Shown piece after piece: positions 8,957 through 34,590 of a stretch of 52,760 nucleotides of DNA. This DNA comes from Clostridia bacterium. Lineage in GTDB: Bacteria > Bacillota > DTU025. The notes under the pieces are model-generated. The model had not been told where the DNA came from and ran no database searches. It saw nothing but the letters and a program-made list of their open reading frames with translations. Made by a program: the position numbers and the translations under genes. Within the stretch, counting starts at the first letter, position 1, and each line of letters starts with the position of its first letter. Location of the stretch: the NCBI GenBank assembly GCA_034926675.1, contig JAYFQW010000046.1:1-52760 (forward strand), given 5' to 3'.

Positions 8957-9988
8957 CTATTTCACTTCAACGAGCCAGCCTTCTGGCGCCTGAACCAGGC
9001 CGGTCTGCATGCCCGCCAGGGTATCGTATAGCTTGCGGGAGACGGGACCGACCTGCTTGCCATCGCCGAACACGTGCAGCTTGCCTTTGTATGAGATGGC
9101 GCCGATTGGACTGATGACTGCGGCGGTGCCACAGCAGCCTGCCTCGGAGAACTCGTCGATGCTGTCGATTCGCACCGGTCGCTCCTCGACCTGCATCCCA
9201 AGGCAATTCCCAGCGATGTGTAGGAGCGAGAACCGGGTTATCGACGGGAGAATGGAGTTCGACTTCGGGGTGACGAACCTGTTGTCGCGGGTGATGCCGA
9301 AGAAGTTGGCTGCACCTACTTCCTCGATGTATGTGTGGGTGGCCGGGTCAAGGTAGATCGCGTCCTGGAAGCCTGCCTTGGCTGCGAGCTCATGCGCCAA
9401 GAGGCTGGCGGCGTAATTCCCGCCCACCTTGATATGCCCGGTGCCGTTTGGCGCCGCACGATCATAATCAGTGACGATGAAGTTGACCGGCTGCAGACCG
9501 GCCTTGAAGTACGGTCCCACCGGCGAGCCCAGAACCAGGAAGGTGTATTCCCGAGCGGGTCTCACACCTAGGTTGTCTCCAACACCGATTAGCAGAGGCC
9601 GAAGGTAGAACGAAGCGCCATGTCCGTAAGGCGGCACCCACTTCATGTTCGCCTTTACAACCTCGATGCAGGCATTTACGAACATCTCCTCTGGCACTTG
9701 AGGCATGAGCAGCGTTTCCGCGCTGCGCCGCATCCGTTTGGCATTTTCGTTGGGCCGGAAGATCGCCACGCGCCCATCCGCCATTGTGAAGGATTTCAGC
9801 CCTTCGAAGCACTGCTGCCCATAATGGAGGGCAGTCGAGCCCTCGGAAATGTGGAGGACATTGTCCTCGATGAGCTTGCCCTCTGACCAGTTGCCATCTT
9901 TCCAGTGGGCGATGTACCGTTTGTCGGTCTTGATGTAGGAGAACCCGAGTTTACTCCAATCAAGAACTGCCTTCTCAACGTTGCTCAC
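8957..9988 (-). CDS. ilvE: Branched-chain amino acid aminotransferase (class IV PLP, BCAT type 2)
   Basis: Transfers the amino group between Leu/Ile/Val and 2-oxoglutarate using PLP. Family marks: HYGQQCFEGLKSF, FRPNENAKRM, ASFYLRPLLIGVG, HIKVGGNYAASL (containing the PLP lysine) and YIEEVGAANFF with the substrate loop. The length (343 residues) fits the longer eukaryote-like bacterial BCAT. I chose GTG 9986-9988 because a strong TTAGGAGG lies about seven bases upstream; an ATG 36 bases further up has none. It has its own promoter (10031-10060). Beside the Liv-type genes it can serve either synthesis or catabolism of branched-chain or aromatic amino acids. Confidence 0.93.
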   Translation of the reverse strand: MSNVEKAVLDWSKLGFSYIKTDKRYIAHWKDGNWSEGKLIEDNVLHISEGSTALHYGQQCFEGLKSFTMADGRVAIFRPNENAKRMRRSAETLLMPQVPEEMFVNACIEVVKANMKWVPPYGHGASFYLRPLLIGVGDNLGVRPAREYTFLVLGSPVGPYFKAGLQPVNFIVTDYDRAAPNGTGHIKVGGNYAASLLAHELAAKAGFQDAIYLDPATHTYIEEVGAANFFGITRDNRFVTPKSNSILPSITRFSLLHIAGNCLGMQVEERPVRIDSIDEFSEAGCCGTAAVISPIGAISYKGKLHVFGDGKQVGPVSRKLYDTLAGMQTGLVQAPEGWLVEVK

Positions 9989-10030
9989 GGCAGGACCTCC
10001 TAACCCTGTGCTTTTGCGTATCACGCTGTA

Positions 10031-10224: not shown

Positions 10225-11355
10225 TTACGGGGTGACGCTGGTCTTATACGTGAACTTGGACCCAACTACCTGTAGGATAACGGCGCTCTTGATTGGGTTC
10301 CTATCGGGGCCCATTGTGAGCACACCGCATACTGCCGGAACATTCTTGGTCGCCGCCATCGCATCGCGGATCGCGATACGGTCGAGCTTACCGGCTTTCC
10401 CTATAGCGTTCTCCACGATCAAGCAGGCATCATAGGCAAGGGCTGCTAGTGCGTCGGGGTTCACGCCATACTTGGCCTTGTAGGCTTTGAGGAACGAGAC
10501 TGCCATCGGGTTGGTGCTCTCCGGTGTGTAGTGGTTGGTGAAGAAGCTCCCATCCATTGAGTTGCCAGCGATCTTGGCGAGCTCCGGAGAGTCCCAGCCG
10601 TCGGATCCGAGGAAAGTCGCTTTGATCCCGAGCTGGCGCGCCTGTGAAGCCTGAAGCCCCACTGAGTTGTAGTAGTCGGGCAGATACAGCACGTCGGGGT
10701 TGGCCTTCTTAATCTTAGTGAGCTGAGCGAAGAAATCCGACTCGCCGGTGCTATAGGACTCGGCCGCCACGATCTTGCCTCCGCCAGCCTTGAACGCCTT
10801 TTCGAAGTTCTCGGCGAGGCCTTTAGTATAGTCATTGCCCACGTCGTAGAGCATGGCGGCTGTGTCCGCCTTCATCTCGTTGAGGGCGAACTTGGCCATT
10901 ACGAGGCCCTGGAAGGAATCGATGAAGCACGCGCGGAAGATGAAGTTCCCAAGCTTGGTTACGGGCTCTGCCGTGGAAGTTCCGGAGATCATAGGAACAC
11001 CCTTCGACTGCGCAATTGGGGCTCCAGCGAGGGTGCAGTTGCTTGTGCACGAACCCATAATCAGGAGGACTTTGTTCAGGTCGATCAGCTTGGAGACGAC
11101 GTTCGCGGTCTCAGCTGGAACGCCTTTGTCGTCCTCGATGACGAGCTGGACCTTGTTCCCCAGGATTCCGCCCTTGGCATTGACCTGTTCTGCCCAGAGC
11201 TCGGCTGCGTTCTTAGTCGAAATTCCGAAGGACGCGACGTCGCCGACGAGAGGGGCTACGAAGCCGATCTTGATCACCTGTTCGGCAGGTATGGCCGTTG
11301 CGCTAAGGGCTAGCATCAGTGCCACAAGTGCACACGCAGTTGCCAGTCTCTTCAT
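10225..11355 (-). CDS. Liv-type ABC transporter substrate-binding protein (orphan, own promoter)
   Basis: An extracytoplasmic amino-acid-binding protein (376 residues, peripla_BP_6 fold). The signal peptide is MKRLATACALVALMLALSATAIPA, and mature IKIGFVAPLVGDVASFG is the typical first strand. NAKGGILGNKVQLVIEDDKG and MGSCTSNCTLAGAPIAQSKGVPMISG follow. The start at 11355 is where the signal peptide begins; GGGGAGG lies 11-12 bases upstream. It sits downstream of the fused LivMGF gene but is preceded by a hairpin and a strong promoter (11435-11463). It can therefore be made independently, perhaps giving the transporter a second specificity. The ligand cannot be read from sequence. Confidence 0.9.
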   Translation of the reverse strand: MKRLATACALVALMLALSATAIPAEQVIKIGFVAPLVGDVASFGISTKNAAELWAEQVNAKGGILGNKVQLVIEDDKGVPAETANVVSKLIDLNKVLLIMGSCTSNCTLAGAPIAQSKGVPMISGTSTAEPVTKLGNFIFRACFIDSFQGLVMAKFALNEMKADTAAMLYDVGNDYTKGLAENFEKAFKAGGGKIVAAESYSTGESDFFAQLTKIKKANPDVLYLPDYYNSVGLQASQARQLGIKATFLGSDGWDSPELAKIAGNSMDGSFFTNHYTPESTNPMAVSFLKAYKAKYGVNPDALAALAYDACLIVENAIGKAGKLDRIAIRDAMAATKNVPAVCGVLTMGPDRNPIKSAVILQVVGSKFTYKTSVTP

Positions 11356-11434
11356 CCCTACATCATCCTCCCCATTTTGAAAATGCGCCACAGCGCTCAC
11401 CCCCATGGGGAAGCCGCCGTGGCTATTAGGAATA

Positions 11435-11463
11435 ACTATACTGACGGAGAAGCCTTCTGTCAA
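11435..11463 (-). promoter_or_regulatory. Strong predicted promoter of the orphan livK-like gene
   Basis: Minus strand: TTGACA (11458-11463), exactly 17 bases, TATAGT (11435-11440). The leader would be about 75 bases. Confidence 0.75.
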
Positions 11464-11494: not shown

Positions 11495-11536
11495 ATGGCC
11501 TGATGCGACATTCCAACCCCGGGGTGATCAGGCCAT
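11495..11536 (-). terminator. Hairpin overlapping the livMGF stop codon
   Basis: ATGGCCTGAT and ATCAGGCCAT (10 bp) surround a 22-base loop that itself contains CCCCGGGG. The stop codon of the fused transporter gene lies in the stem. No U-tract follows, so it may act as an attenuator, an RNA-processing site or a 3'-end stabiliser rather than a classical terminator. Confidence 0.4.
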
Positions 11537-14239
11537 GTAGGCCTTGGTCACCTGCTCATCTGCGCGCAAGTCAGAAGAGGAACCGGATGCGACCACACGT
11601 CCCCCGCGAATAACGTATGCCCTGTCCGCAACTGATAAGGCCGCCTGTGCGTTCTGCTCAACGAGAAGAATCGCAGTTCCCATTCGGTTTATCTCGATGA
11701 TCGCTTCCATCACTCTCTCGACCATTATCGGCGCCAGGCCCATGGACGGTTCATCCATGCATATAAGTGCAGGCGAGGTCACAAGGGCACGCCCAATCGC
11801 AAGCATCTGCTGTTCTCCTCCAGAGAGGGTCCCTGCGAGCTGCTTCGCTCGCTCTGCAAGAACGGGAAACAGCTCGTAAGCACGCTCCATGCCGGAGCGC
11901 ACAGCGGCCCGATCACGGCTGCCGCGAGGGGCAGCTGCGAACGACGATGTCTCTAGGTTCTCCGCCACCGTAAGCTCGGGGAAGATCCGGCGACCCTCTG
12001 GGACCATGCTGATTCCCCGGCGCACGATTTCATTGGTGGGTCGCCCATCTATGCGCTGGCCTGCAAGGAGAATCTCCCCGGCGCATGGACGAAGGCGCCC
12101 CATCACCGTCTTGAGCATTGTGGATTTCCCCGCAGCATTGCTCCCCAGAAGGGCCACGATCTCGCCGGGATAGACGACAAGATCCACTCCATCGAGCACC
12201 TTTGCCTGGCCGTAGGCTGCATGCACAGAGCGCAGATCCAACACAGGTGTGGCGGCTGTGCCCGCGGCGCCCCTCGGCATGCTCGATGTGGGGCGCAGTG
12301 CGGCCTCTCTGTTGGCGGCGGAGTACCCGAGGTAAGCCCGCACGACATCAGGATCGGCAGCGACCTGGGATGGCGAACCCTCGGCGATTTTCTCGCCGTG
12401 ATCGAGCACAATAACTCGGTCGCACGCAGCGGCGATCAGATCCATGTGGTGCTCTATCACCATGATCGTGCAGCCTTGTGCGCGGAGCCTTGCGATGTCG
12501 TCGACCAAAGCAGCGATCTCGTCCGGCGCCATGCCGGCGGCGGGCTCGTCGAGCAGCAGAACGCGGGATCTGGTGGCCAGTGCGCGGGCGATCTCCACTC
12601 TTCGGCGGTCAGGGTAGGAGAGTGATTTCACTGGGTCCGCCTCGCGCGATGCAAGCTCCGGTCCAATGGAGGTCAGCACCTTCCTCACCCATGCGACTTC
12701 CTCCGCCTCCTGTGCCGCATGGCCGGGGGTCCGCAGGATCGCTCCGATGACGTCTGTAGGTTGGTGAAGGTGGCAGCCGGCGAGGACGTTCTCCAGGACT
12801 GTCTGGGTGTCATACAGCCTGATGCTCTGGAATGTCCTGGCGATCCCCATGGCGGTGATCTCGTTGGGAGGAAGCCCCACTAACTGATGGCCTGACGAGG
12901 ATATGCTCCCAGTCGATGGCTTCACAAGGCCAGTAATCAGGTTGAAGAGCGTGGTCTTGCCTGCGCCGTTCGGCCCGATCACGCCGAGTATCTCACCTGC
13001 GTGAAGCGTGAAACTGACATCCGACACTGCAGCAAGCCCACCGAAATGGCACGTGAGTCCAGATATCTCGAGTACGGGCTGGGATGGCTGGCGCGTCTGG
13101 CGCGTTTGGGGCGGCCGGCGCCGCCGCGATGGCGGCGATGCTAGAGATGCCCGCCTTGGCTTGACATGCACGCTGCCCGCCCTTATTCTGCCGGGGGCAA
13201 CGGCAGGGGTCAGCCTCTCACCAACCGCCATGAGCCCCTGGGGCCTGAACACTGCCAGCAGAACCAGGGAGAAGCCGTAGATAAGCATGCGATAGATGCT
13301 GTATGCCCGAAGGAGTTCCGGCAGGATCTGCAGGAGAAGTACTCCGAGCATGATCCCTGGAACACTCCTAATGCCGCCCAGGATTGCCATGCAGTAGAGG
13401 GCAATGGTCTCCGACATCGTGAAGTTCTGAGGGAAAACTGCGCCCTGCCAGGAGGCGAACAGCGCTCCGGCAAGCCCTGCGATCGCAGCGCCCGCAAGGA
13501 AAGCCGTCACTCTGTAGCGCTTCACATTCACGCCCATGCACGACGCTGCAGTCTCGTCTTCCCTCAGCGCGTTCCAGGCCCTGCCGACTTTTGAACCGAC
13601 GAGCCTGCTCACGACCACGAGCGTGGCCAGCGCAAACGCCCATATCAGCACGTACGACGAGTGCATTGAGGAGAGCGTGAGGCCGAGAATACGGGGAGGA
13701 TCGATAGCCACGATTCCATTAGGCCCGTTCGTGATGTTGATGGGGCGATCCGCGTTGTTGAGCAGGATCCTGACTATCTGGCCGAACCCGAGGGTGACCA
13801 TGGCGAGATAGTCGCCGTGCAGCCGCAGGGTGGGCAGGCTCACTGCGGCTGCAGCGAGCAGTGCCGCCGCAATAGATGCCATGGCCGCCGGGATGAACGG
13901 AAGATGGATTCCAAAGTGCGGTGAGGCCAGAAGTGCGTACACGTAGGCCCCGATGCCGTAGAACCCAGCATAGCCAAGGTCTAGCAGTCCAGCGTGGCCC
14001 GCGACTATGGAAAGACCTGCGCTGAGCATCACGTAGATTCCGATTGATCCACCTGCTCTAATGAGGTAGTAGTTGCCTGTTAGCAGAGGTATGGGGAGCA
14101 TGATCGCGTATGCCGCGAATACGGCGGCCCGGGACAGCCAACCTGCTTCCCGAGGGGCGGCTGGAAGAATGCCAGGCTCAGAACCGCCTTGAGGCGACGG
14201 TCTTCTTTTCCTGAGGATCTGGCTGAATCCAAACGACAT
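11528..14239 (-). CDS. Fused Liv-type ABC transporter: LivM permease + LivG ATPase + LivF ATPase
   Basis: One 903-residue polypeptide holds three normally separate subunits. Residues about 30-345 are a LivM permease (many hydrophobic helices, [19 protein letters not shown] and FRPQGLM). After a low-complexity linker ([13 protein letters not shown]), residues about 385-650 are a LivG ATPase with Walker [10 protein letters not shown] (about 423), the [13 protein letters not shown] signature region, Walker [10 protein letters not shown] and the IEHHMD switch. A second linker leads to a LivF ATPase (about 668-903) with Walker [25 protein letters not shown] and [17 protein letters not shown] precedes the start by about seven bases. 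The companion LivH ends 15 bases upstream. The second Liv operon here (29.9-34.6 kb) keeps these subunits separate. Confidence 0.92.
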
Positions 14240-14254
14240 ATGCCACTCCGCCTT

Positions 14255-15184
14255 TCACGCTCTTGTACGCGACTCCTGACCAAACAGGCCCGCAGGTTTG
14301 AGAATAAGGGTGAGGATGAGCACTGCGAACACGATTGCATCCTTGTACACGGGAGGCGCCAACAACACTCCGACGCTCTCAGCGAGGCCCAGAACGAGCC
14401 CGCCGGCCATCGCTCCGTGGAAATTCCCTATCCCGCCGAGCACTGCGGCCGTAAACGCTTTCAGACCCGCCGAGAAGCCAATCATGAAGTCTACCTGCAT
14501 ATAGTACATGCCAACCATGACCCCTGCTAACCCTGCGAGCGCAGAGCCAAGTACGAATGTGGCGGATATCACCATTGAAGTGCGTATCCCCATGTACTCC
14601 GCTGCCTCTGCATCTTGGCTGGTGGCCCGCATCGCGCAGCCGAACCTGGTGCGAGACACGATTAGGTCGAGCATGGTCATGATGAGCAGGGATGTCCCGA
14701 TCATCGCCAGACGAGTTGCGCTCACGGTGGCTCCTGCGAAATGGATCACCCAGTCCTGTGGGATCAGGAGTTCGGTGGCGTAGGCCTTGGCTCGGGCCGA
14801 AGTGAGCAGCATCGCGGCGTTCTCCAGGACGATCGACACGCCGAGGGCCGAGATGAGTGGCGCAAGACGTGAGCCTCCGCGCAGGGGCCGGTAGGCGAAT
14901 CTCTCGATGGCCAGGCCGAGCAATGAGGTGACTGCCACTGCACCTGCCCCCATTGCGAGAAGGATCAGAATCGGGCTCACGATTGGCGCGCCGCCGCGGG
15001 TGAGGAGCGACAGCACTCCCCATCCCGCGAAGGCGCCGATCATCAGCACATCGCCGTGAGCGAAGTTCAACATCTTGAGGATGCCGTAGACCATCGAGTA
15101 GCCCAACGCTAGGAGAGCGTAGACGCTTCCGAGAGTAAGGCCGTTCACTATCTGTTGAGGTATCTGGGCGAGAAGCTGATCCAT
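14255..15184 (-). CDS. Liv-type ABC transporter permease LivH
   Basis: An integral membrane permease (309 residues) of a branched-chain/polar amino acid ABC transporter. Family marks are QQIVNGLTLGSVYALLALGYSMVYGILKMLNFAHGD at the N-terminus and AFTAAVLGGIGNFHGAMAGG near the C-terminus, where it contacts the ATPases. I chose ATG 15184 (MDQLLAQIP) with GAGGTG about eight bases upstream. The gene lies in the T-box operon between the binding protein (64 bases upstream) and the LivMGF fusion. It would pair with the LivM half of that fusion to form the membrane channel. Confidence 0.92.
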   Translation of the reverse strand: MDQLLAQIPQQIVNGLTLGSVYALLALGYSMVYGILKMLNFAHGDVLMIGAFAGWGVLSLLTRGGAPIVSPILILLAMGAGAVAVTSLLGLAIERFAYRPLRGGSRLAPLISALGVSIVLENAAMLLTSARAKAYATELLIPQDWVIHFAGATVSATRLAMIGTSLLIMTMLDLIVSRTRFGCAMRATSQDAEAAEYMGIRTSMVISATFVLGSALAGLAGVMVGMYYMQVDFMIGFSAGLKAFTAAVLGGIGNFHGAMAGGLVLGLAESVGVLLAPPVYKDAIVFAVLILTLILKPAGLFGQESRTRA

Positions 15185-15248
15185 GGGATACACCTCGTTG
15201 TTCCGCCACCGCGCACTGCAGGCAGTTTTGGCCTGCATGCTGCTGCTG

Positions 15249-16418
15249 CTACTTGCCGGCCGCCGCCGGGTACTCTCTTACTTGCGCGAAGTCGTCCCCC
15301 TTGACCTGATACACGAAGATACTCGAGCCCACCACATCGCCTTTCGGGTCGAAACTGATGGGGAAGCCTAGAATGCCCTTGAAACTCACTGTCTTCGCCA
15401 CTGCCTGGAGGACTTCTGCCCGGTTGAACTTGGATGCCCCTAGGGATGAGGCCTGCTTCATGGCGGCGATCAGAATGTTGGTCGCCTCGTACGACTGCCC
15501 GGAGAACACGCTCATCGCACCGTACTTGCCTTCAAACTTGCGGATGAACTCGCGGGCGTCGGCGACTTCCTTGATGTCGCGTCCTATAGACGTCACGTAC
15601 ATCCCCTCGGCGAGCCCACCTGCTCCAGCAATGAGCTGGTCCCTCTCCTTCACGCCATCCCCTCCCATGTACTTCGGGGATAAGCCAAGCCCCGCCGCCT
15701 GCTTGATGAGGGCTGCTGCCTGTGCCGGATTCGCCATACCGAGGTATAGCAGGTCAGGTTTTGCCGCCTTCACCTTGGTGAGGATGGGCGAGAAGTCCCT
15801 ATCATCCGTGGTTGCCTGCCCACGGGAGAACTTGACTCCAGATGCCTTAAGAGATAACTCGACCTGATCTGCGAGGCCCTGTCCGTAGGAGGTCTTGTCA
15901 TCTATCAGATACACGTACTTCGCCTTGATGACTTCCACGATAAACCTGGCTGCCGCCGGCCCCTGGGCATCGTCGCGGGGGCATATCCTGTGCATGACCT
16001 TGTAGCCCATGTCGGTGAGGGCGGGATTGGTTGCGGACTGGCTGATGACCACAAGGCCTGCACGCTGGTAAGTAGGGAGCGCTGCCTGTGTAGTCTGGCT
16101 GTTCATCGGGCCGACCACTCCCAGGACCGCCTTGTCCATCGCGAGCCTCTCAGCGACGAGGATGGCCTTTGATGGGTCACCGCCGTCGTCGGCTTCAACG
16201 ATCTCGATCTTCCGCCCATCAATGCCGCCGTTGGCGTTAGCCTCGTCAACAGCCATTCTAATGGCGTTCAGAGCGTCGAGGCCGATCTTGGAGAGGTCTC
16301 CCGTGAATGGACCTGCCGCTCCTATCTTTACTGGCGGCAGGGGTGCGCGGCCCAGCCCTGGGGCTGATAACGATAGAAGCGCGGCGAGGATGAGGACCAT
16401 GAGTACTCTTTTCTTCAT
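15249..16418 (-). CDS. Liv-type ABC transporter substrate-binding protein of the T-box operon
   Basis: 389 residues with a clear signal peptide (MKKRVLMVLILAALLSLSAPG) and mature VKIGAAGPFTGDLSKIG, ANANGGIDGRKIEIVEADDGGDP, GVVGPMNSQTTQAALP and SQSATNPALTDMG, all of the LivJ/LivK fold. A strong AGGAGG lies nine bases before the ATG. It follows the AOR gene by 16 bases, so it belongs to the operon controlled by the tryptophan T-box. The ligand may therefore be tryptophan or a related aromatic compound (inference from regulation, not from the binding-site residues). Confidence 0.92.
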   Translation of the reverse strand: MKKRVLMVLILAALLSLSAPGLGRAPLPPVKIGAAGPFTGDLSKIGLDALNAIRMAVDEANANGGIDGRKIEIVEADDGGDPSKAILVAERLAMDKAVLGVVGPMNSQTTQAALPTYQRAGLVVISQSATNPALTDMGYKVMHRICPRDDAQGPAAARFIVEVIKAKYVYLIDDKTSYGQGLADQVELSLKASGVKFSRGQATTDDRDFSPILTKVKAAKPDLLYLGMANPAQAAALIKQAAGLGLSPKYMGGDGVKERDQLIAGAGGLAEGMYVTSIGRDIKEVADAREFIRKFEGKYGAMSVFSGQSYEATNILIAAMKQASSLGASKFNRAEVLQAVAKTVSFKGILGFPISFDPKGDVVGSSIFVYQVKGDDFAQVREYPAAAGK

Positions 16419-16434: not shown

Positions 16435-18966
16435 CTATTTGGTTGACTGGGATGGATGGTCTCCGATTCGAGTTGTTGCCCACTGGGTTAAGCCAAGCCG
16501 CTGTAGTGTAGCAGCGGTTGGAATTCCGGATGCCCGATCCCAGCCGCGGGCGTCGTAGTATTCATCGAGCATCTCGTCTAGCGGCACTGTGCTTCCGCTG
16601 GTTTCGCCACACCCTTCAGGCATGGGCTCTGCGAGAAACCGGCGCGGGAGGGTGTCATCGCGGCGCCGTATCCCAAGCGAAGCAATGAAACATCGCTCGA
16701 GATTGACTGTCCTCTCACATGCATCTCTGACTGCGCATTCCGAAAATGGCAGCCCTGTGGCTGCTGCCAGCAGTTGCGCCGCGTCGGCGAAGGAAAGGAC
16801 CTCCATATTGGTGATGGTGTTCTTGCACGCGTCGAGGGCGTCGGCAAGGGCTGAAAGCTCCTCATAGTGCTTCACGACCCTGCCCTTCCCACGGCTCCCC
16901 AGGCGGAAGGCTGATTCTGCTGAACCGAAACGAGCGAGGCCCGCAGCTGCGTCCTCCGTGAACTCGAAGGACGGTTCCGAGCGCAGATGGTCGCCGCCTC
17001 GACTTGCGACCGCATTGCCCAGAGCGTAACCCTTGATTCCCCGTGGATCCGCCATGAAGAGCTCCAAGCCCTTTACGTGCATTGCAAGCTCCTCACTTCC
17101 CCGACCAATTCGGCGGGCCGCCTCTCGGACTCCGTCGGCAAGCACGTCACCGAAACCATGTCGTGCCGCGATTCTCTCTATCATGGCAAACACGGTGTCC
17201 ATGTTGCCCCAGGACAGATCCAGCCCGTCGGCCTCCGCAGAGGTTATGATTCCACGCTCGAAACACTCCATGGAGAAGGAAATGCACTCTGAAGTCGTGA
17301 TCACGTCCATTCCCAGGCGATTGCACAGGCTAGTTGCGGCGAGCCCGGAAGCGAGGTCCGGGTTGCCTACCCGCGATGTGAAGGCGGCGAGCCCCTCGAA
17401 TTCCGGGCCTTCGCTGCGCAGGCCCGCGTGAGGCCCCGCCGTTATCTCGAAGAACCGGGAGCATGGTATGGTGCACGACTGGCACGCTTTGCCTTTCACC
17501 CGGAATCGGTCAGCGAGAGCCTCTCCGCTCACCATGGAGGCGTGCTCAAACCGGCCCATCTGATAGTGGCGAGTTGAGAGGCATCCCATGGAATTGAGGG
17601 AAGAGAGGAGCCTCGTGGTCCCCAGTGCTACACGGGAGCCATAGTCTGAATGCGAGTAGATGCGGGAATCCACAGCGGCGACCAGCCGGACGAAGCGATC
17701 AGGGTCAGAGACTGCAACAGGCTTTGTGCCTCGGACCACGATGGCTTTGAGCCCTTTCGATGCCATCACTGCGCCCATACCGGTCCGAGCTGCAGCGCGG
17801 ACCAGATTGCAGAATATGCCCGCGAACTTCACGCCTGCCTCTGCCGCTGGACCCACGGCTGCCACCTGCGCCCGCGGGCCATGCACTGCATGAAGATAGT
17901 GCTGGACTGCTGGGATTTCCGCGCCTGCAAGCTCCGGACAGGGGATCAGCTTCACTTGATCATCCTCTATGACCAGGTAGGAAAGCTCGGATGCGGCGCC
18001 AGTGATAATCACCCGGTCATAGCCCGCGTACCGGAGTTCAGCTCCGAAGAACCCGCCTGCGTTCGAGTCACCGAGTATGCCTGTTTGGGGCGACTTGGAC
18101 GTGAAGTTGACTCTGCCTGATCCTGGGAACATGGTTCCGGCCAGAGGACCGACCCCGATGATCAGGGCGTTTTCGGCGGAGAGCGGGTCCACATCCGGGG
18201 CTGCGCCGAGTTCCCGAACTAGCGTGGCCACGTTCGCGCCGCGTCCGCCGATGTAGCTGAGGGCGAGGGAAGGGTCGGATGGCTCAGCCGTAAACCGCGG
18301 CGCGGAGAGGTTGGCGCGCATAGTGCGGCCTGCGTAGGCGTATGCATGTGCATCGGCCGATGCGCCAAATGCCCTCGCGCAGAGCGTCGTGACCTCGTTC
18401 GCTGGGACTTGGTTCGCTGGGACTTGGTTTGCTTGGATTGGGTTTGCTTGGATTGGGTTTGCTTGGGCCGCGGGAGAGACTGGACCTTGGGCGACGCCTG
18501 CACTCCGCCGGGCCGAAGATTTGCCGTGGAGGACAGTTTCCCCAAATGAGATGGCGCCAGTAGCGCATCGCGCCACGCATTGGGGATCGCCTCCGCACAA
18601 GTCGCAGATCAAGGGGGCCGTCCGTCCGGCTGCAAAGTGGACGGCGCCGTGGGGGCATGCCTCTCTGCAGGCTTCGCACCCCATACATAGGGATTCGTCG
18701 AGTGATAGACGACTAGCGCCACCACCAATGATGGCAGCAGTGAGCGCGCCCGCCGGGCACGCCGCTACGCAGGGCGCATCGGAGCATTGACGACACACGA
18801 TCGGAAGGTCCAGCCCTTCTTCATCGACCTTGTGGACCCGGATGCGCGACCGCTCAGGCCAGAAACAGCGCTCATGAGCGAAACTGCACGCCAGCTCACA
18901 TGCGCGGCATCCCGAGCATAGCTCGCGTGTAACTGCTATACAGACTGATCCGACCTGGCGTGTCAT
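16435..18966 (-). CDS. Ferredoxin-fused aldehyde:ferredoxin oxidoreductase (tungsten AOR family)
   Basis: About 843 residues. Residues 1-170 form a four-cluster ferredoxin of the HycB/DmsB type: CSGCRACELAC, CRQCSDAPCVAAC, CMGCEACREAC and CDLCGGDPQCVARC. A repeat linker (about 175-195) leads to the AOR body: GGRGANVATL, GPLAGTMFPGSGRVNFTSKS (tungstopterin binding), CQSCTIPC (the [4Fe-4S] site) and the distal cysteine in DALDACKNT. AOR interconverts aldehydes and acids with ferredoxin; the N-terminal domain probably supplies the electron wire. The frame is open up to 19068, but that part is the T-box terminator, so I chose ATG 18966 (MTRQVGSV). First gene of the T-box operon. Confidence 0.88.
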   Translation of the reverse strand: MTRQVGSVCIAVTRELCSGCRACELACSFAHERCFWPERSRIRVHKVDEEGLDLPIVCRQCSDAPCVAACPAGALTAAIIGGGASRLSLDESLCMGCEACREACPHGAVHFAAGRTAPLICDLCGGDPQCVARCATGAISFGETVLHGKSSARRSAGVAQGPVSPAAQANPIQANPIQANQVPANQVPANEVTTLCARAFGASADAHAYAYAGRTMRANLSAPRFTAEPSDPSLALSYIGGRGANVATLVRELGAAPDVDPLSAENALIIGVGPLAGTMFPGSGRVNFTSKSPQTGILGDSNAGGFFGAELRYAGYDRVIITGAASELSYLVIEDDQVKLIPCPELAGAEIPAVQHYLHAVHGPRAQVAAVGPAAEAGVKFAGIFCNLVRAAARTGMGAVMASKGLKAIVVRGTKPVAVSDPDRFVRLVAAVDSRIYSHSDYGSRVALGTTRLLSSLNSMGCLSTRHYQMGRFEHASMVSGEALADRFRVKGKACQSCTIPCSRFFEITAGPHAGLRSEGPEFEGLAAFTSRVGNPDLASGLAATSLCNRLGMDVITTSECISFSMECFERGIITSAEADGLDLSWGNMDTVFAMIERIAARHGFGDVLADGVREAARRIGRGSEELAMHVKGLELFMADPRGIKGYALGNAVASRGGDHLRSEPSFEFTEDAAAGLARFGSAESAFRLGSRGKGRVVKHYEELSALADALDACKNTITNMEVLSFADAAQLLAAATGLPFSECAVRDACERTVNLERCFIASLGIRRRDDTLPRRFLAEPMPEGCGETSGSTVPLDEMLDEYYDARGWDRASGIPTAATLQRLGLTQWATTRIGDHPSQSTK
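18391..18465. repeat. Five in-frame 15-bp tandem repeats in the AOR linker
   Basis: Units start at 18391, 18406, 18421, 18436 and 18451. The last two are identical (GATTGGGTTTGCTTG) and the others differ at one to five bases. On the coding (minus) strand they encode QANPI-, QANQV- and PANQV-type pentapeptides. The unit length is a multiple of three, so copy-number change would only alter linker length. Confidence 0.9.
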
Positions 18967-19032
18967 ACGAGCATTGCCTGCCTTTCGCGATGCCTCGTAG
19001 GCGAACTGATGCATCGGAGCGTGAGGAGTACG

Positions 19033-19066
19033 AAAAAAGAAGCCCATCCCGCTAGGGACGAGCTTC
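19033..19066 (-). terminator. T-box intrinsic terminator
   Basis: Minus strand: GAAGCTCGTCCC (19066-19055), loop TAGC, GGGATGGGCTTC (19050-19039), then six T. The stem has 12 bp including two G-T pairs. CGTCCC also belongs to the alternative antiterminator partner region, as in known T-boxes. Confidence 0.85.
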
Positions 19067-19335
19067 ACACTCGTGGTGCCACCCTAATTAGGTAGAATAG
19101 CCTACCTATCTCATTACAGAGCACGGCCTGCCGGTAACAGGAGGCGATGCCCATGCCTTATAACGGTGGCTTCCGGCTCGGCCTACTAGGCGCCCTTCGG
19201 GTCCTTTCGGCCTGCGACTCCGGGGTCCACTCACCACACCCATCGCGCGGAGCTCACACCGTCCTCCGCTCGCTTTGGTCAGGGCCTGCGTGGCTACCTT
19301 CCCCTTCAACGTCTTTCAGTTGGCTCATCATTCAG
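19033..19335 (-). promoter_or_regulatory. T-box riboswitch, UGG (tryptophan) specifier
   Basis: A roughly 300-base leader upstream of the AOR-Liv operon with every T-box landmark in order. Stem I has a distal-loop segment CGGTGTGAGC resembling known glyQ leaders. The specifier stretch reads GTGAG-TGG-ACCCCGGAG, with TGG at 19229-19227 followed by the usual purine. A CCGTTATAAGG stem III-like segment follows. The T-box motif is AGGGTGGCACC (19085-19075), then the terminator. In TGGCACC the variable base is C, which would pair with discriminator G73, the base found in bacterial tRNA-Trp and so consistent with the UGG codon. Expected behaviour: uncharged tRNA-Trp stabilises the antiterminator and turns the operon on. 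Confidence 0.88.
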
Positions 19336-19345
19336 CTTTGATCAT

Positions 19346-19374
19346 ATGAAACAACATATGACGGGAGTTGTCAA
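19346..19374 (-). promoter_or_regulatory. Promoter of the T-box operon with an internal inverted repeat
   Basis: Minus strand: TTGACA (19369-19374), 17 bases, TTTCAT (19346-19351; a poor -10, with TTCATA one base further also possible). An inverted repeat TCATATG-N6-CATATGA (19342-19361) fills the spacer and overlaps the -10, a typical repressor position. The operon may thus have transcriptional control as well as the T-box. Confidence 0.5.
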
Positions 19375-28388: not shown

Positions 28389-28676
28389 ATGGGCGGCTGT
28401 GGCGAAGTTGTGATGGCGTCCTTCGTGGTGCGATTCACGCAGGAGATTGATGAAGCTGGGGCTGCGATCGGCCAATCCGAATCGGTGGGAATCGAGGCTG
28501 AGGCCGTAGATCATGGCCAACGCCAGGCGCCGCCAAGATGGCGGGTGCTGGTAAGGCACATACAATCCGGCGAGGAGCGGCTTTTCACCGATTTTGCGCA
28601 AGCGATGGAGTTCATCGAGGGACGTGTAAGCGCCTTCGGCTATCAACACCAGCTCGAAAGGAGTCCAGAGGAATGA
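28389..28676 (+). CDS. Small conserved-looking hypothetical protein between SDR and thiolase
   Basis: 95 residues from ATG 28389, with AGGAGGAG ending a few bases upstream (28378-28385). It has two parts: [13 protein letters not shown] near the N-terminus, and [19 protein letters not shown] then AMEFIEGRV at the C-terminus. The latter half resembles many short uncharacterised proteins that end in a 'HIQSGEE..F.....FI' pattern. The stop overlaps the thiolase start (ATGA), so it is translationally coupled and likely a real member of the operon. Function unknown. Confidence 0.7.
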
Positions 28677-29854
28677 GAGAGGTCGTCATTACATCTGCGG
28701 TCAGAACTGCAATCGGCTCGTTCAATGGCACTCTGGCGCCATTCCAAGCCTGGGAACTCGGGGCTATCGCTATCAAGGAGGCACTGGCGCGTTCGAGTGT
28801 AGAGCCTGGAGCTGTGGATGAAGTATTCCTTGGAAGCATCCTAACTGGGGCGCAGGGCTCCAATCCCGCGCGTAGGGCATCTTTGAAGGCAGGCCTGCCA
28901 GTCGAGGTTCCCGCCACTACGTTGAATATGGTGTGCGGCTCCGGGCTGAAGTCAGTCGTGCTGGCTGCCCAGGCCATTGGGGCCGGCGATGACGAAATCG
29001 TGGTAGCTGGCGGGGCGGAGAGCATGTCCAACGCGGTTTACTTCATGGACAGCGCCAGATGGGGTATGCGCATGGGCCATGGCCAGATCAAGGACGAGAT
29101 GATAATGAACGCCCTGTGGTGCCCGTTCGGCGACGTGCACATGGGAATCACGGCTGAGAACGTAGCGGCCAAGTACGGAATCACCCGCCAGGAGCAGGAC
29201 GAGTTCGCCCTCGCAAGCCAGATCAAGGCGAACGCGGCCATCGCATCTGGTAAGTTCGAACGCGAGATCGTGCCTGTGGAGATTCCGCAGAAGAAGGGCG
29301 ATCCGATTCTGTTCGCCAAGGACGAATATCCTCGGGCAGGCGCCACGATCGAGGGCCTCGCCAAGCTGAAGCCTGCGTTCAAGAAAGACGGAACAGTCAC
29401 AGCTGGGAACGCATCTGGCATAAACGACGGGGCTGCAGCCGTGGTGGTGATGAGCGCCGAGCGTGCAGCGAAGCTTGGGATCAAGCCTCTCGCGGTGATC
29501 CGTTCCTATGGGTACGCTGGAGTAGAGCCATCCATCATGGGCATGGGCCCTGTTCCAGCCACGAAGAAGGCACTCGCCAAGATCGGCGCGGCCGTAGGCG
29601 ACATGGACCTCATCGAAGCCAATGAGGCATTCGCAGCTCAGTCTCTGGGGGTTGCCCGGGAACTCAATTGGGACCCCACCCGTGTCAACGTCAACGGTGG
29701 GGCCATAGCTCTCGGCCATCCAGTGGGCGCGAGCGGCGCTCGCATTCTCGTTACGCTGATCCACGCACTCATAGACAGGGGCCTCAAGAAGGGCCTTGCC
29801 ACTCTGTGTGTTGGCGGAGGGCAGGGCGTTTCCGCCGTGATAGAGATCGTCTGA
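28673..29854 (+). CDS. Acetyl-CoA C-acetyltransferase (thiolase)
   Basis: 393 residues, the usual thiolase length. The nucleophilic cysteine is C88 in [19 protein letters not shown] lies in the loop domain. The catalytic histidine is in [17 protein letters not shown], and the second cysteine is in LCVGGGQG. It condenses two acetyl-CoA to acetoacetyl-CoA or cleaves 3-ketoacyl-CoA. With the SDR it forms a two-step 3-hydroxyacyl/3-ketoacyl-CoA module. Co-transcription with a Liv transporter suggests breakdown of imported branched-chain amino acids or acids (e.g. isoleucine to 2-methylacetoacetyl-CoA), although dehydrogenase and hydratase genes are not in the window. Confidence 0.93.
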
Positions 29855-29923
29855 GGGAGCCCTTGGCTAACGCAACTGTGGGACCCGGCCGGACCGGCGG
29901 AACTAGGACTGGGGGTTGGCTAG

Positions 29924-30793
29924 ATGCTCGGCCAGCAGATCGTAAGCGGGCTCTCGGCGGGGTGCCTGTACGCCCTGGCGGCGCTGGGGCTAGTGTTGAT
30001 ATACCGCACAATGGACATAGTCAATTTCGCCCACGGCGAGATGGCCATGATATCCACGTTCGTTGCGCACACGCTGCTCGTGCGCGCAGGGCTTCCCTAC
30101 GTCCTGGCCGCCCTCGGCGCACTCGTATTCGCTGCGCTATTCGGCATGATCGTAGAGCGTGTGTTCCTGAGGCCGATCCAGAACGGGCCGCTGATCAGCA
30201 TGATGATAATGACACTCGGCCTACTCATGGTGCTGAGTGGAGCAGCCGGCTGGGTGTGGGGATTCGACCCAATGAGTTTCCCACGCGCAGTGCGAGGCGC
30301 GCCTCTCTTCGTCGGCGATCTCATCATCACCCGTGATACCCTCCTTGTGCTCGCAGTGACGCTGGCAATGGCGGGAGCGCTTTATGCGGTGCTCAGGTTC
30401 ACCATGGCCGGCATTGCGATAAGAGCGACCAGCCAGAATTCCCGGGCCGCTCGGCTGATGGGGGTCCCTGTGCCGAGGGTATACTCGCTGACCTGGGGCA
30501 TTAGCGCCGTGCTGGGGGCGGTGGCGGGGATACTCATCGCGCCTACTACGTTCCTGAGTCCGAGCATGATGGCGGAAGTGCAGATCAAGGCGTTCACAGC
30601 CGCTGTTCTCGGAGGCTTCACTAGTTTGCCTGGCGCCGTGTTGGGAGGCCTGCTTCTCGGGGTTCTTGAGAACATCGTGGCGGGCTACATATCGACTCAG
30701 CTGAAGAGCACATTCGCTTTTGCGCTCATCATGGTCGTCCTGTTCATCAGGCCAAACGGGCTTCTGGGCTCGACTCAGAGAAGGAAGGTGTGA
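29924..30793 (+). CDS. livH: Liv-type ABC transporter permease LivH (second system)
   Basis: 289 residues. MLGQQIVSGLSAGCLYALAALGLVLIYRTMDIVNFAHGEM is the canonical LivH N-terminus, and KAFTAAVLGGFTSLPGAVLGG is the ATPase-contact loop. Starts 69 bases after the thiolase; GGGGG precedes the start by about nine bases. First of five Liv genes in order H-M-G-F-J. Confidence 0.92.
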   Translation: MLGQQIVSGLSAGCLYALAALGLVLIYRTMDIVNFAHGEMAMISTFVAHTLLVRAGLPYVLAALGALVFAALFGMIVERVFLRPIQNGPLISMMIMTLGLLMVLSGAAGWVWGFDPMSFPRAVRGAPLFVGDLIITRDTLLVLAVTLAMAGALYAVLRFTMAGIAIRATSQNSRAARLMGVPVPRVYSLTWGISAVLGAVAGILIAPTTFLSPSMMAEVQIKAFTAAVLGGFTSLPGAVLGGLLLGVLENIVAGYISTQLKSTFAFALIMVVLFIRPNGLLGSTQRRKV

Positions 30794-30796
30794 CGT

Positions 30797-31876
30797 ATGA
30801 AGGATAGAGCATCTGGCAGCAGGGCGTGTGCGGATCGTGCAGCTTCTGCGGCTTCTGCGGCGAGGCCCGCAGCTGCCATCAGCGTCCGTGCGCGACATGG
30901 CTTCCTCTCAACGCCCACCAGCAAGAGACTCATGCTTGCTCTGGCTCTGATCCTGCTTCCTCTGATCACCGTGGCCGTGGATAGGGCGTATGTAGTCTAC
31001 ATCTATAGCCTCGTGATGGTGTACGTGATAGTTACCCTAGGACTGAACATCCTCACAGGATACACCGGGCAGATATCGATTGGGCACGCAGGGTTCATGG
31101 CCATATCGGCCTACGCTTCTGCGATCCTTACAGGCCGGTTCGGATTACCGTTCCCAGTCGCGATGATCCTGGCGGCGCTGCTATCGGCAGTCGTTGGCCT
31201 TGGCCTTGGAATCCCGGCGCTGAGGCTGAGAGGGCATTACCTGGCCATTTGCACTCTCGGTTTCGGTGTTGCGGTGAGCCAGCTCTCGGCGGTGTGGGAG
31301 GCTTTCACAGGAGGATACCAGGGTATGAAAGTGCCCACCGCCTCGGCCTTAGGGTTTAGGTTCGACACCGACCTCCGCTATTACTACCTTGCTCTTGTTG
31401 TGACATGGCTGCTGATTGAAGCGGCTAGGAACATGCTTCACACGCGACCTGGCCGGGCCCTGATGGCTGTTCGGGATAGCGAAGTGGCGGCGCAGGCTAT
31501 GGGGATAAACCTGTCCAAGTACAAGGTGGCCGCGTTCGCCATAAGCGCCTTTTACGCCGGAATGGCAGGGAGCCTTTACGCGCATCTGGTGAAATACGTG
31601 AGCCCCTTCGACTTCAGCGGCGCAGTGTCCATGACTTTGCTTGCCTCCATTGTGGTGGGCGGATTGGGCAGTGTTCCAGGTTCAATACTGGGAGCGGTGT
31701 TCATGACCCTGCTTCCCCACGTGTTCAGCCGCGTGAAGAATCTGCCCTTGGTTCTATCAGGGATCTCGCTGATCCTCGTGGTGCTGTTCCTGCCATATGG
31801 GCTCGTGAGCCTACCGTGGCGCATTAGGAGCCTCAGATCTGGTGTGAAGAGGGGTGCGAGCCATGGCGATGCTTGA
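30797..31876 (+). CDS. livM: Liv-type ABC transporter permease LivM (second system)
   Basis: 359 residues. The first 45 are an odd, Ala/Arg-rich cytoplasmic extension (ADRAASAASAARPAAA, with a repeated GCTTCTGCG in the DNA). The permease core follows: LGLNILTGYTGQISIGHAGFMA, LRLRGHYLAICTLGFGVA and FLPYGL near the end. GGAAGG lies about eight bases upstream. The stop overlaps livG. Confidence 0.92.
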   Translation: MKDRASGSRACADRAASAASAARPAAAISVRARHGFLSTPTSKRLMLALALILLPLITVAVDRAYVVYIYSLVMVYVIVTLGLNILTGYTGQISIGHAGFMAISAYASAILTGRFGLPFPVAMILAALLSAVVGLGLGIPALRLRGHYLAICTLGFGVAVSQLSAVWEAFTGGYQGMKVPTASALGFRFDTDLRYYYLALVVTWLLIEAARNMLHTRPGRALMAVRDSEVAAQAMGINLSKYKVAAFAISAFYAGMAGSLYAHLVKYVSPFDFSGAVSMTLLASIVVGGLGSVPGSILGAVFMTLLPHVFSRVKNLPLVLSGISLILVVLFLPYGLVSLPWRIRSLRSGVKRGASHGDA

Positions 31877-32642
31877 GCTCAATGGGGTTACCGTTAGGTT
31901 CGGCGGGCTTGTTGCAGTGAACTCCCTGAGCTTCAAGGTGGAGAAGGGAGATATACACGGTCTGATTGGACCCAACGGGGCTGGCAAGAGCACCGTCTTC
32001 AACTGCATCAGCCGTTTCATCAGGCCCGAGGAAGGAAGTATTTTCTTCGCCGGCAGACCTCTGGACTGCGAACCCCACGATGTAGTGCTCCGCGGCATCG
32101 GCCGGACTTTTCAGAACGTGGAGCTGTTCCGCGGCCAGACAGTGATGGACAACATCCTTCTCGGGATGCACACTGCCGGCGCCGCTGATTTCATCGGAGG
32201 GGCCTTCCTCTCGCGAAGGGTGAAAGCCGAGGAGGTGGAACTCCGGCTGCGAGCCGCTGAGGTCCTGAAGTTCCTTGGGATTGCCGAGTACGCGGCACGC
32301 CCGGCGCTTGGCCTGCCGTATGGCGTGCAGAAACTGATCGAGCTCGGTAGGGCTCTGGCTCTGCGTCCAAGCATGATCCTTCTAGATGAGCCCGTGGCGG
32401 GGATGAATCCAACAGAACGGGTTGAGCTCGCGAAGGTGATAAGGCGGATAAGGGACGAATTCCAGATGACGGTCCTCCTAGTGGAGCACGACATGTCGTT
32501 CGTTATGGGCCTGTGCAACGCGATCACCGTGATGAACTTCGGCAGCAAGATCGCGGAGGGGACCCCTTCGGAGGTGCAGAGAAACCCGTCGGTTATCCAA
32601 GCATACCTCGGGGAGGACACAGAAGATGCTGCGACTAAGTAA
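31863..32642 (+). CDS. livG: Liv-type ABC transporter ATPase LivG (second system)
   Basis: 259 residues. Walker A GPNGAGKST, the GRTFQNVELF Q-loop region, Walker B MILLDEPVAGMN and VLLVEHDM switch. The signature position reads LPYGVQKLIELGRAL instead of LSYGxQR, a common LivG variation. I chose ATG 31863 with GAGGGG eight bases upstream; ATG 31869 is also possible. Overlaps livM by 14 bases and livF by 17. Confidence 0.93.
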   Translation: MAMLELNGVTVRFGGLVAVNSLSFKVEKGDIHGLIGPNGAGKSTVFNCISRFIRPEEGSIFFAGRPLDCEPHDVVLRGIGRTFQNVELFRGQTVMDNILLGMHTAGAADFIGGAFLSRRVKAEEVELRLRAAEVLKFLGIAEYAARPALGLPYGVQKLIELGRALALRPSMILLDEPVAGMNPTERVELAKVIRRIRDEFQMTVLLVEHDMSFVMGLCNAITVMNFGSKIAEGTPSEVQRNPSVIQAYLGEDTEDAATK

Positions 32643-33342
32643 GCTCCAGGTCAACTACGGCATGGTCTCTGCACTCACTGACGTGTCTCTCGAGGTCCGC
32701 GAGGGCGAAATAGTGGCCTTGCTCGGTGCAAACGGAGCTGGGAAGACCACCACACTAAGGGCGATCTCAGGCATATGCCGACCGGCCTTTGGAAGCATCG
32801 AGTTTGCAGGCAAGCGCATCGATGGCTGCCCGCCCGAACGCATAGTCTCGTTAGGCATCGTGCAGGCGCCGGAGGGACGGCAGGTCTTCCCGGAGCTGTC
32901 AGTGAAGGAGAACCTCCTGATAGGGACCTACTCGCGCCGCGATCGCAGGAGCATCCCCGATGACTTCACACGGGTGTATGCGCGTTTCCCCATCCTGAAG
33001 GAGCGGGAAACCCAGCCGGCCGGCACCCTGTCCGGAGGAGAACAACAGATGCTGGCGATCGGCCGCGCTCTCATGGCCAGTCCGAGGCTGCTTCTCCTTG
33101 ACGAGCCTTCTCTCGGACTCGCGCCCATAGTCACGAGGCAGATATTCGATATCATTAGGACCCTCAATGATGAGGGCACGACAATACTCCTCGTTGAGCA
33201 AAACGCCCGGCTGGCCCTGGCCATCTCGAAACGGGCCTACATTCTTGAGATAGGCAAAGTTGTCCTATCCGGCCGGAGCGAAGAGCTTATGAAGAGCGAG
33301 GAGGTGAAGCGGTCTTACTTGGGCGGGAATGCGGGCAGGTAG
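32626..33342 (+). CDS. livF: Liv-type ABC transporter ATPase LivF (second system)
   Basis: 238 residues. Walker A GANGAGKTTT, QAPEGRQVFPELSVKENL, signature [15 protein letters not shown], Walker B LLLLDEPSLGLAP and LVEQNA switch, all typical LivF. GGGGAGG lies about ten bases before the ATG, inside livG. It works as a heterodimer with LivG. Confidence 0.94.
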   Translation: MLRLSKLQVNYGMVSALTDVSLEVREGEIVALLGANGAGKTTTLRAISGICRPAFGSIEFAGKRIDGCPPERIVSLGIVQAPEGRQVFPELSVKENLLIGTYSRRDRRSIPDDFTRVYARFPILKERETQPAGTLSGGEQQMLAIGRALMASPRLLLLDEPSLGLAPIVTRQIFDIIRTLNDEGTTILLVEQNARLALAISKRAYILEIGKVVLSGRSEELMKSEEVKRSYLGGNAGR

Positions 33343-33393
33343 TCGCACTTGGGTCCTGCGTGTTCAGATGACAAATATGTGGAGGCGAAAAGC

Positions 33394-34590
33394 ATGAAGA
33401 AGTTCTGGCTTTCGGTCTCGGCGTGCCTCGTCGCTCTTCTCCTAGTGACCATCCCCGGCACGATCATCGCCGCGCCAGTGCCTGGCATAACTGCTGACCA
33501 AGTCCTAATTGGGGCATTCCAGGATCAGTCCGGGCCGGCTGCTGTCGTTGGCATCAACATGCGTAAGGGCATGGAGGCCTACTTGAACTGGATCAACGCC
33601 CAGGGCGGCGTCAATGGCAGGAAGATCAAGCTCATCGTGGAGGACGACGGGTTCCAGGCATCCCGTTCAATCGCCGCCACAAAGAAGCTCGTGGAGCAGG
33701 ACAAGGTGTTCGCGCTCGTGGGCACTCTGGGGACTCCCGGATTGGCTGCGACTATCGACTACATCGTGGAGAAGGACGTGCCCTCGATCTATCAGGGGAG
33801 CGGCATTTCGTCTCTTGCGTACCCTCCCAAGAAGCAGTTCTTCCCGGTCCAGCCCAACTACATCAGTGAAGGCCGCATCATCGCCCAGTACGTGGTTGAG
33901 CACCTCAAGCACAAGCGGATCGCGGTTGCGTGTGAGCAGACCGATATCGGATCCCAGGGCCTTCGCGGCGTGAAGGACCAGCTTTCCAGGTACAACATGG
34001 AGCCTGTGGAGGTCGTCAACTTCGGCGCCGCCGACGTGGACTTCAGCTCTCAGATCCTCAAGCTGATCAAGGCCAAGCCTGAGTCGGTCATCATCTACTC
34101 AACCCTGAAGCCGTGCGCCGGTCTCCTGAAGCAGGCGGCCACGATGGGCCTGAATGCCCAGTTCCTGACCACTTACGTCAACGCCGATCCCGTTCAGATG
34201 CCTGCCCTCGCCGGCGAGGCGTGCGTGGGCCTGATCGCCCCAGGATGGGTGCCCGTGCTCGGAAACGACGCCGATTCCGCCAAGTACCTTGAGATCTATC
34301 AGAAGAGCTTCCCGAAGGAGATGCCGAGCGCCTTCGCCGCTGCCGGTTTCATTGCGGCTGAAGTCTTCACCGAGGGCCTGAAGCGGGCCGGCAACAACCC
34401 CACCCGAGAGGGACTCATTGCAGCAATGGAGACCTTCAACGATTGGGACGGCATCATGGCAAAGGGAATCACCTACACCCCAGAGTTCAGGTCAGGCAAG
34501 GCTTCGATGTACTTCATGAAGTTCATGAAGCCCAAGTTCGAGCAGGGTTCAGTCGAGGTCATCTCCGAGTGGATCAAGCTGAAGATATGA
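33394..34590 (+). CDS. livJ: Liv-type ABC transporter substrate-binding protein LivJ (second system)
   Basis: 398 residues. Signal peptide MKKFWLSVSACLVALLLVTIPGTIIA, mature DQVLIGAFQDQSGPAAVVG, INAQGGVNGRKIKLIVEDDG and YQGSGISSLAYPP. The signal peptide and the GGAGG eight bases upstream fix the start at 33394. It is last in the operon, 51 bases after livF, and is followed by a strong terminator at 34659. ABC binding proteins are usually needed in excess. Ligand unknown; the LVGTLGTPGLAAT segment resembles binding proteins of short organic acids as well as amino acids. Confidence 0.92.
   Translation: MKKFWLSVSACLVALLLVTIPGTIIAAPVPGITADQVLIGAFQDQSGPAAVVGINMRKGMEAYLNWINAQGGVNGRKIKLIVEDDGFQASRSIAATKKLVEQDKVFALVGTLGTPGLAATIDYIVEKDVPSIYQGSGISSLAYPPKKQFFPVQPNYISEGRIIAQYVVEHLKHKRIAVACEQTDIGSQGLRGVKDQLSRYNMEPVEVVNFGAADVDFSSQILKLIKAKPESVIIYSTLKPCAGLLKQAATMGLNAQFLTTYVNADPVQMPALAGEACVGLIAPGWVPVLGNDADSAKYLEIYQKSFPKEMPSAFAAAGFIAAEVFTEGLKRAGNNPTREGLIAAMETFNDWDGIMAKGITYTPEFRSGKASMYFMKFMKPKFEQGSVEVISEWIKLKI

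Follow-up and report, generated by a model that had tools for sequence, protein, structure and literature searches.

A window of 52,760 nucleotides (the whole stretch of DNA analysed here, from a Clostridia bacterium) carries on its minus strand a leader that, on sequence grounds, we regard as settled to be a transcriptional T-box riboswitch with tryptophan specificity, standing ahead of an aldehyde ferredoxin oxidoreductase (AOR) and a Liv-type ABC transporter. In our reading, which we hold with good confidence, the operon encodes a tryptophan importer induced by tryptophan starvation in organisms that lack the standard pathway, and the AOR belongs to it by ancestry but can be dispensed with.

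The Rfam T-box model (RF00230) matches the minus strand at 19051-19318 over its full length (model positions 1-219 of 219), with 96.7 bits against a curated cut-off of 93 bits and an E-value of 4.4e-20; this match, together with the register control described below, defines a Trp-specific leader running from Stem I to the antiterminator. The 5' half of the antiterminator (19070-19085) contains the T-box motif UGGCACC at 19075-19081, in which UGGC complements the GCCA end of tRNA-Trp. An intrinsic terminator, AAGCUCGUCCC-UAGC-GGGAUGGGCUU followed by a U run, was found at 19033-19065 on the same strand by a terminator scan, and its region folds with a z of -4.25. Because CUCGUCCC is common to the antiterminator and the terminator, the two structures are mutually exclusive. 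Among the Stem I pairs, 92.3% of pair cells were formed, two-sided changes occurred in 25 of 25 pairs and none of 500 shuffles was equally good, statistics that are biased towards the model since the alignment had been fitted to it. Upstream, TTGACAACT (19366-19374, minus strand) was read from the sequence as a probable -35 element with a weak -10; the promoter scan placed this site below its pass level, and TTGACA is also found upstream of two other leaders, that of L134 and that of a TrpB2 gene. The first-pass annotation had described a T-box with specifier, antiterminator and terminator controlling this operon, and the covariance match, register control and domain searches bear out that description as a whole.

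The specifier UGG lies in the Stem I bulge at 19227-19229 of the minus strand, in the context GAG-UGG-A-CCCC, as placed by covariance alignment. As a control of the register, a Stem I model was built and 26 T-boxes from the window and related genomes were brought into one covariance alignment, with gene identities read from the frames downstream of each leader and four weaker leaders left out as one or two columns off or of unclear product (L117, L120, L007 and L010). The specifier columns hold AUC before ileS, CUC before leuS, GUC before valS, ACC before thrS, UCC before serS, AUG before metS, CAC before a HisS-like gene, UGC before cysE/cysK and UAC before an SSS (sodium:solute) symporter; the same columns hold UGG in the window leader, in the leaders of the AOR relatives and in the TrpB2 leader. 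It could be argued that the true specifier is an overlapping triplet, AGU (Ser) or GUG (Val), and that the operon answers to a different amino acid, given that the bulge GAGUGGA holds overlapping triplets and that non-standard frames can occur (TBDB, PMC7778990). We consider this very improbable: in the serine (UCC), valine (GUC) and further leaders of the class, the standard columns hold the codon that fits the gene, and UGG is invariant in every orthologous leader read, with or without an AOR, while the base 3' of it varies between A and G. The covariance model, which the first-pass annotation had allowed might put the specifier elsewhere, for example on a serine AGU, places UGG in the specifier position, and on the register control we reject both the Ser and the Val frame. 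The host tRNA-Trp (L179) has the anticodon CCA, complementary to UGG, and a 3' end reading CTCCCCT-G-CCA, and its GCCA end, with G73, is complementary to the leader's UGGC, as had been proposed from the leader alone.

The next long minus-strand frame after the terminator is a fusion of an N-terminal 4Fe-4S ferredoxin with an AOR (16435-18966, ATG at 18966, 843 aa), in which AFOR_N (9e-64, 215 bits) and AFOR_C (1e-119, 400 bits) both exceed their cut-offs, Fer4 is also matched and the linker is rich in repeats (ANPIQ/ANQVP). The best PDB match is Pyrococcus furiosus AOR (1aor, 2e-112). The cluster and catalytic residues of known AORs are present (CxxCxxxC, EGPE.E, RGG.H), so the protein very probably works as a ferredoxin-linked enzyme on aldehydes or acids. 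The segment singled out by the first-pass annotation spans the leader and the AOR, and the transporter genes lie just beyond, all on the minus strand: a Liv-type binding protein (SBP, 15249-16418; Peripla_BP_6 1.6e-61; LBP 1usg 3e-44), a LivH permease found by domain search (14255-15238) and a 903-aa chain with one permease and two ABC domains in which LivM, LivG and LivF are fused (11528-14239). Gaps from the AOR on through SBP, LivH and LivMGF measure 10-16 bp. With one Peripla_BP_6 protein, two BPD_transp_2 permeases and two ABC ATPases, the parts of a Liv-type (HAAT) importer are complete. The gene order and domains agree with the operon content first proposed, LivMGF being one frame; the orthologous fusion is kept in relatives.

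A second Liv-type binding protein (10225-11463, minus strand; Pfam 1.4e-67) begins 65 bp after LivMGF, with a promoter-like site at 11463-11435, and is possibly part of the same transcript; no orthologue of it was found beside the operons of relatives. An ilvE-like gene (8957-10024), another 200 bp on, was rejected as an operon member on account of that gap, its own promoter-like site and its not being adjacent in relatives. Elsewhere in the window, a separate plus-strand cluster (28538-34590), in which no T-box was detected, contains a thiolase along with another Liv-type binding protein (33349-34590).

Close relatives of the AOR were sought in 84,980 species genomes, yielding five Bacillota contigs from four MAGs with AOR identities of 63-72%. 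The four of these five contigs that reach far enough upstream share the same leader and the order AOR, SBP, LivH, LivMGF, and a fifth genome with the Trp leader, AOR and transporter (G008) belongs to the order of the window. The same leader, for which a comparative search before AOR genes had been suggested, accordingly recurs in five relatives (L037, L038, L039, L041 and G008). In every AOR-bearing locus with the leader in reach, the AOR with its ferredoxin follows the leader directly, and the AORs of this set group together in a single clade (SH-aLRT 100), separate from the remaining AORs found in the class. A gathering-level Rfam search of the relatives' loci returned no T-box match, and their leaders were located by motif and alignment instead; they score 125-130 bits with the Stem I model, whose training set included L037 and L038, with L039 and L041 outside it. 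A motif search of the AOR loci retrieved from archaeal, chloroflexal and further bacterial genomes found no leader of the Trp T-box kind before the AOR. In the relatives read, the ferredoxin occupies a frame separate from the AOR catalytic chain, whereas the window has both in one 843-aa protein with the repeat-rich linker. In G008 an uncharacterised domain, TIGR04076, precedes the ferredoxin of the AOR and is fused to it (L139:8979-9800, minus strand). The MAG UBA6811 has two AOR-SBP copies (L040 and L041); at L040 no LivH comes after the pair, and the leader lies beyond the contig.

Four genomes from three genera of the window's family (G001, G002, G004 and G006) carry the Trp leader, again with UGG, directly before SBP-LivH-LivMGF with no AOR between. 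These transporters are orthologous to that of the window (61-77% identity). It is thus the transporter that stays with the leader throughout. The AOR relatives that the four genomes do hold reach no more than 37% identity to the window AOR, so an orthologue has not simply moved elsewhere. In a midpoint-rooted tree of the concatenated transporter proteins, the four genomes without the AOR cluster together beside the window (98/94) within a family group (100/100), and the other AOR-bearing loci fall outside the family group. Several of the genomes compared in this work are incomplete MAGs. If the midpoint root is right, this topology is likely explained by one loss of the AOR with the leader and transporter kept, and our best reading is that the AOR is an ancestral but dispensable operon member lost at least once in the window's family.

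The binding protein offers a separate view of the cargo. Its residues matching S79, T102 and Y150 of LBP, together with an acid at 226, do not vary between the window and 10 orthologues, with or without an AOR. In LIVBP/LBP and mGluR, the corresponding residues hold the amino-acid backbone. The LBP sequence on which this mapping is based is consistent with the PDB alignment (1usg). The side-chain pocket differs from that of LBP, with I in place of W18. Because the same Trp leader drives the AOR-less orthologue and the SBP keeps the alpha-amino-acid residue set, we take tryptophan or aromatic amino acids to be the most probable cargo. The first-pass annotation had suggested that the importer might carry acids of the indole-acetate type; the leader on the AOR-less transporter in four genomes speaks against this, as does the backbone-binding set, which would be unexpected for an aryl acid without an amino group.

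Tryptophan supply in the lineage points in the same direction. IGPS/TrpC was found in 0 of 12 genomes of the class and 0 of 4 further AOR-bearing MAGs (G012-G015), in a search whose control was detected in 14 of 14 known genomes; the standard route to tryptophan thus seems to be missing from the class. The T-box specificity, the missing TrpC and the kept pocket residues together suggest that the transporter is likely a tryptophan importer, and the expectation that the system should acquire tryptophan is supported. TrpB2 exceeds its threshold in just two genomes, G000 and G008, which may make tryptophan from indole in this way, and is absent from G012-G015. A second Trp (UGG) T-box, with its leader at about 10409-10702 on the minus strand (G000:C62:32408-32701), precedes a stand-alone TrpB2 (L012:8978-10357, minus strand; TIGR01415, 635 bits), likely an indole-to-tryptophan salvage enzyme. 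TrpB2 was rejected as a partner of the AOR: G000 and G008 are the only genomes of the class in which the two occur together, which had suggested a link, but TrpB2 is lacking from four further genomes that carry the AOR.

We infer the direction of switching, the cargo and the role of the AOR; the leader, its specificity, the gene order, the conservation and the lack of TrpC were computed. When tryptophan is short, the CCA anticodon of uncharged tRNA-Trp would pair with the UGG of Stem I, and the GCCA end of the same tRNA would pair with the UGGC of the bulge, holding the antiterminator so that the operon is transcribed; once tRNA-Trp is charged, the terminator would form. The predicted output is a Liv-type ABC importer for tryptophan or aromatic amino acids, with which the AOR would be co-induced in the window's branch.

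Two further readings concern what the AOR contributes. Known AORs oxidise many aldehydes (PMC6365974) and can reduce acids, including non-activated ones, at low potential (PMC9295118). The enzyme might detoxify aldehydes or recycle ferredoxin during amino-acid fermentation, with imported aromatic amino acids partly degraded to aryl aldehydes. Family genomes have 3-7 AOR-domain matches each, and the Aromatoleum AOR oxidises phenylacetaldehyde in phenylalanine degradation, assumedly preventing its toxic accumulation (PMC6365974). Such a role would, however, require an importer with a broad cargo, and induction of a degradative enzyme by scarcity of the amino acid would be the wrong way round; we regard it as possible, though somewhat unlikely. 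Alternatively, the AOR could convert an aryl acid or aldehyde and be induced to help make tryptophan: for example, indole-3-acetate might be reduced by the AOR to the aldehyde and then pass through a CoA ester, reductive carboxylation and transamination to tryptophan. The position of the AOR and ferredoxin directly behind the Trp leader, the kept catalytic residues, the acid reduction known for the family and the lack of TrpC in the AOR-bearing genomes searched are consistent with salvage. Yet four genomes keep the leader and transporter without the AOR, the AOR reaction on its own would leave the missing carbon still to be added, and TrpB2 does not track the AOR, being absent from G012-G015; we think salvage unlikely. 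Its most specific form, in which a low-potential, ferredoxin-linked tungsten AOR induced by uncharged tRNA-Trp helps anaerobes without the trp pathway to rebuild tryptophan from an indolic acid or aldehyde, we hold to be a shade more doubtful still. The open literature searched contained no paper linking AOR, tryptophan and indoleacetate. Nor did any paper that mentions the T-box together with aldehyde ferredoxin oxidoreductase turn up in that literature, which included few subscription papers, in keeping with the earlier remark that no described AOR under T-box control was known.

Our preferred reading, a starvation-induced tryptophan importer with a dispensable AOR, has precedents in its parts. 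The trpXYZ operon of Streptococcus suis and S. pneumoniae likewise places a Trp T-box before an ABC importer in a tryptophan auxotroph, with induction by low tryptophan in S. suis (PMC9382623), whereas the importer of the window is of Liv type (LivH plus fused LivMGF) and its operon includes an AOR. The same logic of regulator specificity is followed in the portion of Wels et al. (2008; PMC2494555) consulted, where Trp T-boxes precede NSS/ABC transporters and trpB-like genes, and where a Dehalococcoides trpB-like gene under a T-box parallels the TrpB2 leader (L012); the Trp T-box targets in that portion include no AOR or Liv-type importer. With P. furiosus AOR (1aor) and Aromatoleum AorABC (8c0z, PMC6365974), the window AOR shares AFOR_N/AFOR_C, the CxxCxxxC cluster, EGPE.E and the catalytic His, and it has a ferredoxin-type partner as in AorABC or WOR5; it differs from 1aor and AorABC in its fused ferredoxin, its T-box control and its amino-acid importer neighbour. 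Escherichia coli LIV/LS (LivJ/K, LivH, LivM, LivG, LivF) has the same subunit families and ligand-backbone residues, but in the window LivM, LivG and LivF form one chain and the predicted cargo is tryptophan, not branched-chain amino acids. A testable cargo is thus assigned, in a little-studied bacterial class, to a kind of importer usually labelled branched-chain. For the AOR family, with its many members of unknown role, the predicted co-induction with tryptophan uptake provides a regulatory clue, and the AOR-less related genera are a natural control for the contribution of the enzyme. In at least four genomes of the window's family (L001, L118, L123, L133), a Tyr (UAC) T-box stands before an enzyme of the tyrosine phenol-lyase/tryptophanase family, hinting that tyrosine may be made from phenol.
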